Below, one piece after another: positions 45,195 through 51,345 of a stretch of DNA of 64,000 nt. Each line of letters begins with the position of its first letter. The first letter of the stretch is position 1. Source of the stretch: Desulfocapsaceae bacterium (GTDB lineage: Bacteria; Desulfobacterota; Desulfobulbia; Desulfobulbales; Desulfocapsaceae); assembly GCA_030653035.1 (NCBI GenBank), contig JAUSAB010000096.1:1-64000 (forward strand). The letters are read 5' to 3'. The position numbers and the translations under genes were made by a program. The notes beneath the pieces were generated by a model. It was not told the origin of the DNA. It did no database searches and saw only the letters and a list, made by a program, of their open reading frames with translations.

Positions 45195-45909
45195 ACATCT
45201 TTACAACCACACCCCTCATGATATCCTTTGCACATGGCAAGAATAGCACGCGTTATATGTCCAGGCATTCCCCATCATATCACCCAGAGGGGGAATCGAC
45301 GCCAGGCAACTTTTTTCTGCGATGACGACTACCTGGCGTATGTCGATTTGCTATCGGAGTGGTGCCGGAAATGTGGCGTGACCATTTGGGCCTGGTGTCT
45401 CATGCCCAACCATGTGCATCTGATTGCTGTTCCGCAGGCGGAAACCAGTTTTGCCCGTGCATTTGGCGAGGCCCATCGTCGCTATACCAGACGGATCAAT
45501 TTTCGGGAAAACTGGCGTGGCCATCTCTGGCAGGAACGATTTGCCTCATTTCCCATGGATGAACTCCATCTGCTTGCAGCCGTCCGCTATGTGGAGATGA
45601 ACCCTGTTGCCGCAGGATTGGTAGCCGACCCTGCAGATTACCTCTGGAGCAGCGCAAGCGCTCACCTCGACGGCACCGAAGATCGCCTTGCCAGTGCGTC
45701 ACCTCTGCAGGATATGATTTCCAACTGGAAAGAATTTTTGCGTTTATCGACCGGTGACGAATTGAAAATCCTGCAACAACACGAACGCACTGGCAGGCCT
45801 TTGGGAACTAGCTGTTTTATGGAGGAAATGGAGCAAAAAATTGGCAGAATTCTACGGCCACAACGACCTGGCCCCAAAAAGAAAAGCGACAGCTAGGCAT
45901 ACTGTCCCC
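45195..45909 (+). mobile_element. RAYT (IS200-like) element
   Basis: The transposase coding sequence plus about 40 bases on the left (AGGGACACATCTTTACA) and the short right end with ATACTGTCCCC. These are typical palindrome-linked RAYT ends. There are no long terminal inverted repeats, as expected for Y1 transposases. Confidence 0.7.
45234..45896 (+). CDS. REP-associated tyrosine transposase (RAYT)
   Basis: A 220-residue Y1/IS200-like single-strand transposase: HHITQRGNRRQ start, the metal-binding HxH in MPNHVHLIAVP, and the tail region SFARAFGEAHRRYTRRINF that should hold the catalytic Tyr. Such enzymes act on DNA hairpins such as REP elements. ATG 45234 is preferred to TTG 45228. The C-terminal part appears intact. 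Confidence 0.9.
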   Translation: MARIARVICPGIPHHITQRGNRRQATFFCDDDYLAYVDLLSEWCRKCGVTIWAWCLMPNHVHLIAVPQAETSFARAFGEAHRRYTRRINFRENWRGHLWQERFASFPMDELHLLAAVRYVEMNPVAAGLVADPADYLWSSASAHLDGTEDRLASASPLQDMISNWKEFLRLSTGDELKILQQHERTGRPLGTSCFMEEMEQKIGRILRPQRPGPKKKSDS

Positions 45910-47076: not shown

Positions 47077-47122
47077 AATCCATGGTGTCAATTAGATCAA
47101 CTCAATCATGGAGGTCAATAAA

Positions 47123-47341
47123 ATGGCAATGGCAGTAAGAATATCAGAAGAATTGGTGGGGGAAGCAAAAAAGTTTAGCAGAATCGAACATCGATCCTTG
47201 ACTGGGCAAATTGAGCACTGGGCTAGAATTGGCAAATGCTCCGAGGAAAATCCAGATTTGACGTACAACCTGATAAAAGAAATTTTGATTGGGATCGAGG
47301 AATTAGATCAAAATGAAAAAACAGAATATCAATTTGGTTGA
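47123..47341 (+). CDS. ParD-like antitoxin
   Basis: A 72-residue protein with VRISEELVGEAKKFSRIEHRSLTGQIEHWARIG, a pattern of ribbon-helix-helix ParD-family antitoxins (short, DNA-binding at the start and toxin-binding at the tail). ATG 47123 follows GGAGGT. It lies 6 bases from the toxin start. It should neutralise the adjacent toxin and bind the upstream palindrome. Confidence 0.8.
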   Translation: MAMAVRISEELVGEAKKFSRIEHRSLTGQIEHWARIGKCSEENPDLTYNLIKEILIGIEELDQNEKTEYQFG

Positions 47342-47347
47342 GAGTCG

Positions 47348-47629
47348 ATGAAAATTTATCAGTCAAGATCTTTTGAGAAAAAAGTAAAGAAGTTCAATGA
47401 AAAAGAAAAATATGAGCTAGATAATGAGATTAAACAGATCATTCAAAATCCATTAATCGGTACTGAGAAGAAAGGAGATTTGAGGGGAGTTTTTGTATAT
47501 AAGTTCAATTTGCAGAACCTGATGTACCTTCTTTCTTATCGTTTCATCAAAGAAGAAAGTCTAGAGCTCATAATGATTGGGCCGCATGAAAATTATTATA
47601 GAGATTTGAAGAGCTATTTGAAAAGTTAA
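47348..47629 (+). CDS. RelE/ParE-type toxin
   Basis: A 93-residue basic protein with KIYQSRSFEKKVKKFNEKEKYELDNEI and a late IMIGPHENYYRDLKSYLK strand that fits the RelE/ParE fold. Family members are mRNA interferases or gyrase poisons; which one is not clear from sequence. The gene is 6 bases after the antitoxin and its stop is 9 bases before an attC, so the whole pair forms a cassette. TA cassettes stabilise integron arrays. Confidence 0.8.
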   Translation: MKIYQSRSFEKKVKKFNEKEKYELDNEIKQIIQNPLIGTEKKGDLRGVFVYKFNLQNLMYLLSYRFIKEESLELIMIGPHENYYRDLKSYLKS

Positions 47630-48294: not shown

Positions 48295-48544
48295 CCGGTG
48301 CTTGACGACTTTGGCCTGGCACCCACTGAACCAGGAACAGCGCCATGACCTGCTGGAGATCCTCGAAGATCGCAATAGCATTAAATCAACCATTGTGACC
48401 AGTCAACTACCCTAAAACCACTGGCATGAACAGATCGGCGCTCCAACCCTGGCTGACGCCATCCTCAATTGCCTGGTGCATGCCACCTGCAGAATACAAC
48501 TTAAAGGAGAATCTATGCGAAAAAAGAAAGCACGCTTGACCTGA
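48295..48544 (+). pseudogene. IS21-family istB remnant
   Basis: Frames restored across a shift read VLDDFGLAP, then QRHDLLEILEDRN, STIVTSQLP, NHWHEQIGAP and TLADAILNCLVHA, the C-terminal end of the IstB helper ATPase (its Walker B Asp pair included). There is one frameshift and one stop in the middle. No istA or terminal repeats were seen. It marks an old IS21 insertion beside the cassette array. Confidence 0.85.
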
Positions 48545-48732: not shown

Positions 48733-50778
48733 TTATGCCTGATGGCATTTGGTACATGTGTAGCCTTTGCCGGCATGAAAAGTATGCAATGTTGAACTGT
48801 TAGACCAGGATTTCAGGCTGTGGCAGTCGTTGCACAGATCACTTGTCGGTTTTACAAGCGGATTACCTGTTGTTGTCGGTGGTGGTGTTGGAGGAGGTGT
48901 TGTCGTTGTTCCCGTATGGCATTTGGTACATGTGTAGCCTTTGCCGGCATGAAAAGTATGCAATGTTGCACTGTTAGACCAGGATTTCAGGCTGTGGCAG
49001 TCGTTGCACAGATCACTTGTCGGTTTTATAAGAGCATTGGTAGTAGTTGTAGTAGTTGTTGGTGGTGTCGTTTGTGCAACTGCTATCGTCACCCCCGTAT
49101 GGCATTTTGAACATTGGTAGCCTTTTGAGATATGTTCTTTATGCAGTTCTTGACTGTTGCTCCAGCTTTCCAAGCTGTGGCAGGTCTTGCACAAAGTGCT
49201 TTTTGCGCTGACAAGGCCCGTGGGCTCAGGTGTATGACAGCTTGCGCATGCCAGTTTGACCGATCCTCCATTACTTGCCGCGTGTTTGTTGTGCATAGCC
49301 TCCCATGTCGAGGTTTTCGCGGAATGACAGAGGGTACAGTTTGCGACCTTGGCCGGCCAGGTATGATAGCCCAGTTTACCCAAGGGGAGCATTTTAGTGC
49401 CATCAACCGTCTTGCCGGTGGTGGCGTGACACTCGGTACAGAGCGGGGCTTTGGACTTTGGATCAACACCATGGCTGATCAGCATCTCGGCATTGGTTCT
49501 CACCATGGTGTAGGTGGTGCCGGTCAAACCCTGTTGTTTTATGCCGGCGAGCACTGCCTTTTTAAAATCTCCGGTCATGAACATGTCCATGATCACCGGT
49601 GGAATGATCTTGCCGCTTGGGTGCAGAGGCATGACTGACCAGTGGTTCTTGATCGGCACGATCTGGGATTTACCGTTAAAGGCTTTACCATTGGCCCTGG
49701 CCATGGTGTAGGTGCCGTCGGCATTTTTCGTGATTATTTCACCAACATTGTAAACGTACGAGGTGCCGTCGAACCAGCGATACTCTGGTTTCACATTGGC
49801 AACCTTAACCTCCGTGCCAACATAACCGCCCTGTCCGGCACAGAAGGCCGGATCCCAAACGGGCTTCAGCCAGTTGCGGGACATCTCGGTTGCGCCGCCT
49901 TTACCGAAGGTACGGATATGGCAGGTCTGACAGCCTACCTGGCCCTGGGCATGACGGTTTAAGACAGCATTGGAGTGAGGTGCAGCAGTATGGCAGTTGG
50001 TGCATTTCGGGTCAGCCGCTTCAGTCTGGCGCAGATCGATGCCGCGACCGCCGATTTTGTGTTTCGTCGTTACATGACAGGAGGTACAGGTCATGTTTTT
50101 GCCGCCCACTGCAGGAGACATATGCACGTCTTCGGCAACCGTTGGGTTTTTGGTGCTCAACCCCATGTCGCCACGTTTAGTCCAGTCACCGCCGCCGGCC
50201 TTGGCATGGCAGCGCAGACAGGAAGTCCGGGTTGGTTTGTGGACGTTCTGGGCCAGAGAGACCATGGTGGTTCCCGCCGGCATGAGCGCGTAGTTGGGTG
50301 CTGTTGTGTAGTTGCCAAGCGCATCCTGTTTTCCGAAGAGATATGTCTTTAAATTACCAAAGATATCGGTGACGGTTACGGGGTTGGCTTTATCGGCAAC
50401 AGTCAGGCGCTGGTAGGTGTCACTATGGCACATAAGGCAGTCCACGTCATTGATAGTTGCCGGATGCGGGGCATTGCCGTCAGCGCGCACATGGCAGGAA
50501 AAACAGACGCCCTTAGACGACGGGGCGTAAGTGCAGAAGGTGTTGATGCCGCCAACCGCCTTACCAAGAACCTTGCCAGGGGCATTAGTTAACTCGGGTG
50601 TAGGCCCTTTCCATTGCATGTGCAGGCTGTTGAGCATGTCTTGTGCCTGTACCTGATGACAGGCAATACAGGTCTGGGGCCCATCATATTTTGTGATTGC
50701 CAGATGTTGGGGAATGGCTCCGCTTGCGTTGCCGGCAAAGAAGGTAAGCGCCGCTGTTGCAAATATTGATTTTTTCAT
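48733..50778 (-). CDS. 16-haem exported c-type cytochrome with repeat tail
   Basis: A 681-residue multihaem cytochrome with a Sec signal (MKKSIFATAALTFFAG). I count 16 CxxCH sites: CIACH, CFSCH, CLMCH, CLRCH, CTSCH, CTNCH, CQTCH, CTECH, CTLCH, CASCH, CKTCH, CSKCH, and two CNDCH/CTKCH pairs. The C-terminal 160 residues have three copies of a two-haem unit (LCxxCHSL-SWSNS, then KGYxCxKCH) separated by Thr/Pro-rich linkers, the last two almost identical in DNA. A role in extracellular electron transfer is inferred. Two copies of GGGAGGAAAAA precede the start. Confidence 0.9.
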   Translation of the reverse strand: MKKSIFATAALTFFAGNASGAIPQHLAITKYDGPQTCIACHQVQAQDMLNSLHMQWKGPTPELTNAPGKVLGKAVGGINTFCTYAPSSKGVCFSCHVRADGNAPHPATINDVDCLMCHSDTYQRLTVADKANPVTVTDIFGNLKTYLFGKQDALGNYTTAPNYALMPAGTTMVSLAQNVHKPTRTSCLRCHAKAGGGDWTKRGDMGLSTKNPTVAEDVHMSPAVGGKNMTCTSCHVTTKHKIGGRGIDLRQTEAADPKCTNCHTAAPHSNAVLNRHAQGQVGCQTCHIRTFGKGGATEMSRNWLKPVWDPAFCAGQGGYVGTEVKVANVKPEYRWFDGTSYVYNVGEIITKNADGTYTMARANGKAFNGKSQIVPIKNHWSVMPLHPSGKIIPPVIMDMFMTGDFKKAVLAGIKQQGLTGTTYTMVRTNAEMLISHGVDPKSKAPLCTECHATTGKTVDGTKMLPLGKLGYHTWPAKVANCTLCHSAKTSTWEAMHNKHAASNGGSVKLACASCHTPEPTGLVSAKSTLCKTCHSLESWSNSQELHKEHISKGYQCSKCHTGVTIAVAQTTPPTTTTTTTNALIKPTSDLCNDCHSLKSWSNSATLHTFHAGKGYTCTKCHTGTTTTPPPTPPPTTTGNPLVKPTSDLCNDCHSLKSWSNSSTLHTFHAGKGYTCTKCHQA
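48742..49031 (-). repeat. Duplicated two-haem module
   Basis: Two segments of about 117 bases, at 48742-48858 and 48915-49031, match at all but about two positions. They encode the last and the next-to-last haem pairs of the cytochrome. The linker between differs, so the duplication is recent and clean at domain borders. Confidence 0.9.
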
Positions 50779-51345
50779 TTTTCCTCCCGTTTATTTTTTC
50801 CTCCCGTTTTATGCCATACGTTTTCAAGCCGATATTTCTTTGTTGGTTGTACCGCACGGCATTCCACTGTATGTACTGCTCTCTTGTGCTGTTTTGTTGC
50901 AGGGTTGTATGTCCTTCTACTGTCTTTGTATAACTCACTAAAGACCTCCCTCGATAAAGAGAATAATTATTAATCTCACATTGACAAGCATTTTGTATGC
51001 CAAATAAAGATTTTTTTAACGTACTGATTGTCTGTTGTTAATATAACAACAGGAGTGTATGTGATTGATGTAACTGGTGTAAAAAGTTAAACTTTAGTAC
51101 AGAATGAAGACAGAAGTGTTGGCTGATGGGGTAAGTGGGCGTTGACCGTAAGTTATGTCTATAAACTGAGCCTCTTGCAAAATGATCTTTTCGCCCAATC
51201 TCTTCGTTATGCTCAGAATTTTATCCTCGGAATATCAACTATATGCCTGCGGTAAAATTTTTCGCATGCCTCGATTTTGGGACGAAAATCTTCATTTTGC
51301 AAAAGGCTCTTTTTTATGCAAGAACTGAGAATAAAGGGAATATAG
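50779..51345. other. Gap with duplicated ribosome site and a MITE-like element
   Basis: The 5' leader of the cytochrome gene (minus strand) has two tandem GGGAGGAAAAA ribosome-site copies near 50779-50812. An AT-rich stretch and a palindrome near 51035 follow. The MITE-like element fills 51168-51309. No gene is seen. Confidence 0.65.
51168..51309. mobile_element. MITE-like inverted-repeat element
   Basis: GAGCCTCTTGCAAAATGATC on the left and TTCATTTTGCAAAAGGCTC on the right are imperfect complements of about 25 bases, 142 bases apart in total, with an internal AATATCAACTAT that looks palindromic. Elements with these GAGCC-TTTTGCAAAA tips recur in related genomes, to my knowledge. No coding capacity. 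It lies directly before hrpB. Confidence 0.7.

Follow-up and report, generated by a model that had tools for sequence, protein, structure and literature searches.

A cytochrome gene in the window, the 64-kb stretch of DNA analysed here, encodes an enzyme core like that of octahaem tetrathionate reductase (OTR), a four-haem block and, past haem 12, a C-terminal extension of 119 residues that consists of two two-haem modules and their Thr/Pro linkers and is restricted to this one gene copy (Table 1). The reading that we consider somewhat probable is that the protein is an OTR-like multihaem reductase with a fused four-haem block, that the C-terminal modules act as tethered electron shuttles, and that the extension arose after the split from an in-genome paralog, its units having later been homogenised through gene conversion or a further round of copying. 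A sequence-only reading had called the product a 16-haem cytochrome, and the motif scan of the open reading frame bears this out. A Pfam search with the whole protein returned generic multihaem models only. HmcA, the 16-haem cytochrome of sulfate reducers (NF045713), shares the sixteen haems but differs in architecture, and membership of that family was rejected, since the score of 17.2 bits against a cut-off of 400 bits is no real match.

Table 1. Features of the 16-haem cytochrome gene and its flanks (window positions; all on the reverse strand)
Feature	Position	Strand	Basis or remark
Cytochrome gene, 681 aa, 16 CXXCH, ATG start; multihaem, putatively periplasmic	48733..50778	-	ORF call and motif scan
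Sec-type signal peptide MKKSIFATAALTFFAGNASG, lipobox Cys absent, predicted cleavage site	50719..50778	-	sequence reading
OTR-like core, haems 1-8, residues 21-456	49411..50718	-	TIGR04315, PDB 1SP3, Foldseek
Cys82 codon	50533-50535	-	
Lys201 codon	50176-50178	-	
Four-haem block, haems 9-12, residues 457-560	49099..49410	-	alignment; conserved in all relatives
Unit 1, last haem pair of the four-haem block	49099-49209	-	
Thr/Pro linker 1, 24 aa, TGVTIAVAQTTPPTTTTTTTNALI	49027..49098	-	predicted disordered, pLDDT about 24-47
Unit 2, two-haem module, haems 13-14, 37 aa	48916..49026	-	2 CXXCH and 2 further His
Thr/Pro linker 2, 21 aa, TGTTTTPPPTPPPTTTGNPLV	48853..48915	-	predicted unstructured
Unit 3, two-haem module, haems 15-16	48742..48852	-	110/111 nt identity to unit 2
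17-bp tandem duplication with two GGGAGGAAAAA ribosome-binding-site copies	50778..50806	-	sequence scan
Perfect 21-bp hairpin with flanking A/T tracts, just past the cytochrome stop codon	48666..48713	-	fold z = -8.5

About two thirds of the protein, judged by sequence and fold comparison, is an OTR-like enzyme core, which the sequence-only reading had missed. Residues 35-456 match TIGR04315 (tetrathionate reductase family octahaem cytochrome; NCBIfam) with E = 4.6e-69 and 233.5 bits, a score that falls below the curated cut-off of 375 bits and thus does not establish OTR activity. The best PDB match is 1SP3, OTR of Shewanella oneidensis, both by sequence (E = 1.5e-42) and by fold (Foldseek search with an AlphaFold model, E = 8e-15, with no second significant match; the model has a mean pLDDT of 56 and its core is moderately confident only). 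In the alignment with 1SP3, Cys82, Asp198 and Lys201 correspond to OTR Cys64, Asp150 and Lys153, and all three are invariant among the relatives that cover those positions. We take Cys64 and Lys153 to be active-site residues of OTR, and Lys153 to be a haem ligand. The family and structure matches, together with the conserved Cys, Asp and Lys, argue that residues 21-456 form an OTR-like eight-haem core. With eight CXXCH alignable to 1SP3 and with the aligned active-site Lys and Cys (Lys201, Cys82) present, the core belongs to the OTR superfamily in the broad sense. PMC4476040 mentions that lysine ligates haem in tetrathionate reductase. Apart from its score below the family cut-off, the window protein differs from the Shewanella enzyme in that the core is fused to four, here eight, more haems. 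It is a candidate reductase, for which tetrathionate, nitrite, hydroxylamine or another compound may be the substrate.

For comparison, related genes were collected from genome contigs and from whole genomes, the latter covering close relatives, the order and the phylum; those with at least 57% core identity and an intact stop codon or C-terminus made up a set of 46. Every one of the 46 ends 1-5 residues past haem 12, and none carries an added two-haem module, so that the repeat-built tail, which brings this protein to 16 haems, is lineage-specific. The 46 include a 12-haem paralog in the same genome (G000:C13:43655-45364), which is 87% identical and groups with the window gene as its sister on the core tree (SH-aLRT 99). 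The extension was most simply acquired in the lineage of the window gene after the split from this paralog; an older extension, later lost from the paralog, is possible. Within this genome no further unit copy is better than the terminal unit of the paralog, and a search of 93 genomes of the family and 395 of the phylum turned up nothing closer than the terminal unit of the family itself. Unit 1 of the same gene does not resemble unit 2 more closely than the terminal units of other species do, and in the AU test (p 0.62-0.75) a grouping of unit 2 with unit 1 was not rejected, the unit tree being uninformative. No synteny with the relatives was found around the cytochrome gene.

Units 2 and 3 are alike far above chance, at 110 of 111 bases, close to the figure of about 115 of 117 estimated by eye in the sequence-only reading. 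There are no synonymous differences between them, and identity drops sharply 1-2 bases beyond the 111-base unit. Unit 1 matches either of them at 73 of 111 bases (66%) and is the diverged third unit that had been recognised as older. The two linkers differ from one another at 19 of 63 aligned bases (about 30%), with a further 9 nt of indels, and the contrast with the single difference in the units is strong (Fisher P = 8e-9). Both linkers are of low complexity; they nonetheless align better than codon-shuffled versions, with 1 of 2000 shuffles doing equally well. The non-repetitive linker ends, which were chosen by eye after the data had been seen, differ at 8 of 24 positions. Replication slippage within Thr codons accounts for part of the contrast between linkers and units.

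One clean recent tandem duplication predicts linkers as alike as the units. Since the linkers have diverged and carry indels, this is not the best fit and is disfavoured. The pattern would be better explained by gene conversion confined to the haem units, or by a unit having been copied into a linker that already existed. Thus, of the earlier proposal that the tail is growing by recent duplication, the repeat-built construction from near-identical units stands, while the single clean event that it assumes is not supported. An assembly artefact was considered and is unlikely, as the longest perfectly matching run is about 60 bases, the linkers are not alike, and the contig that contains the gene is 64.4 kb long. 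A more dynamic picture, in which ongoing recombination keeps the haem beads identical while the Thr/Pro strings are free to change, so that the haem arm of a soluble respiratory reductase lengthens, varies in length within the species and tunes how far the enzyme reaches for electrons, is in our judgement quite unlikely.

The added modules could also be products of chance recombination, harmless and redox-active baggage with no special role. The presence of the tail in one gene only, with the paralog and 45 other relatives lacking it, is what such neutral elongation would give. Both modules, however, keep an intact reading frame, and none of the four CXXCH or four extra His that they contain has been lost; haem insertion is costly; and the only base difference between them is nonsynonymous but conservative (Ala/Ser). 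We therefore regard neutral elongation as unlikely, while taking it seriously. The two CXXCH and two other His of each module are sufficient for two bis-His haems.

The linkers are rich in Thr and Pro (12 of 24 residues in linker 1 and 15 of 21 in linker 2) and look flexible, in agreement with the flexible chain suggested from the sequence; the low pLDDT of the linkers in the AlphaFold model is weak evidence for disorder, and the arrangement of the tail in that model is not interpretable. This flexibility argues against a continuous wire and for delivery by tethered diffusion. Of the longer electron wire and the longer reach for which the sequence-only reading had suggested selection, reach fits better than conduction. 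An extended fixed wire or filament subunit, in which haems 13-16 would pack against the four-haem block for conduction over a longer distance, would be in keeping with sixteen haems in a single chain and with the similarity of the units to cytochrome c7 (PF14522). Linkers of 21-24 residues between the modules would, however, break the close stacking of a packed haem chain, and the PDB searches by sequence and by fold revealed no likeness to cytochrome filament proteins, OTR being the only confident match, which makes a fixed wire very unlikely.

Two known systems suggest how a tethered arm might work. Tethered-diffusion electron transfer was put forward in 2024 as a new class, of which PgcA was the first member. 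In this Geobacter sulfurreducens protein, haem domains on (PT)x linkers move independently and, by tethered diffusion, carry electrons across distances of up to 180 A (PMC11520253). Thr/Pro linkers separate haem domains in both proteins. PgcA is an extracellular lipoprotein with three domains of one haem each, two of which have His-Met ligation, whereas the window protein has two haems per module, enough His for bis-His ligation, an enzyme core and a plain Sec signal. STC of Shewanella is a separate soluble tetrahaem cytochrome that binds OTR with weak affinity (Kd 1.6 mM; PMC4484225); haems 9-12 could play the same part of tetrahaem donor to the core, the difference being that they are fused to it. 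The tethering in PgcA and the binding of STC to OTR lead us to see in haems 9-12 a fused donor block, which haems 13-16 would feed as tethered shuttles.

Under the tethered-shuttle reading that we favour, the eight-haem core would reduce a soluble sulfur or nitrogen compound in the periplasm. The Sec signal is a plain one and lacks a lipobox Cys, which suggests that the protein is soluble and periplasmic. The fused haems 9-12 would stand in for the small tetrahaem cytochrome that serves OTR as a separate shuttle in Shewanella, and the modules of haems 13-16 would take electrons from a partner and hand them to the four-haem block by leashed diffusion, not by conduction along a fixed wire. Once added, the two modules would have become identical through gene conversion, or through a second round of copying with its ends in the linkers.

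The tail might instead serve mainly to dock the enzyme to a partner, a mineral or an outer-membrane conduit. A binding role of this kind has some precedent, as the (PT)x motifs of PgcA were formerly proposed to enhance mineral binding (PMC11520253), and in relatives of the window protein Pro-rich or Gly/Ser linkers attach accessory domains of other kinds at the N-terminus. The added modules, however, are haem modules with no recognisable binding domain, and there is no sign in the 16-haem protein of export past the periplasm; we consider docking as the main role highly improbable.

Accessory domains take several forms in the family. Six relatives (L005, L006, L007, L014, L021 and L091) have a beta-rich domain on (PxPPPV)n linkers, or MopE-type metal-binding repeats, before the 12-haem body; the beta-rich domain matched no Pfam family. 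Two others, L009 (2608-4596) and L094, have 13 haems, with a one-haem domain on an N-terminal Thr/Pro linker. Tethered haem accessories thus recur in the family, and the N-terminal haem domain of these two proteins is an independent case of the design. Desulfurivibrio-type genomes carry tandem pairs of 12- or 13-haem OTR-like genes (L012:2628-6459, L015:274-3985 and L009:731-4596).

Each of the three elements, an OTR-like enzyme, extra haem domains and haems tethered by Thr/Pro linkers, is already known; the literature searched contained no protein that combines them and has a natural counterpart without the tail in the same genome. The 16-haem gene shows how an enzyme gains haem modules, and the 12-haem and 16-haem forms in one genome are a natural pair with and without the tethered beads, which would allow the role of the tether to be tested directly.

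The leader of the gene has a small duplication of its own. The two tandem copies of GGGAGGAAAAA pointed out in the sequence-only reading are real: they lie 17 nt apart and are the only two in the 64-kb window. The paralog leader has one GGGAGGAAAAA at the matching place; the 17-bp duplication is private to the window gene. Behind the upstream copy stands ATA instead of ATG, and the start codon therefore adjoins the downstream copy only. At the other end of the gene, the hairpin past the stop codon is probably a strong intrinsic terminator, possibly a bidirectional one, to judge by its stem and flanking tracts.

Further out on the 3' side, a decayed IstB (IS21-family) remnant at 48300-48540 (+), covering the last third of the PF01695 profile (E = 2e-19), ends about 190 nt from the cytochrome stop codon and may mark a past rearrangement on this side. 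A small toxin-antitoxin-like two-gene pair lies at 47108-47629 (+), its second gene being ParE-like (PF15781, E = 1.5e-30). Genes for Y1/IS200-like transposases of the REP-associated type were seen at 45228-45896 (+) and at L003:5460-6164 (+), within a few kb of the window gene and of the paralog, respectively.
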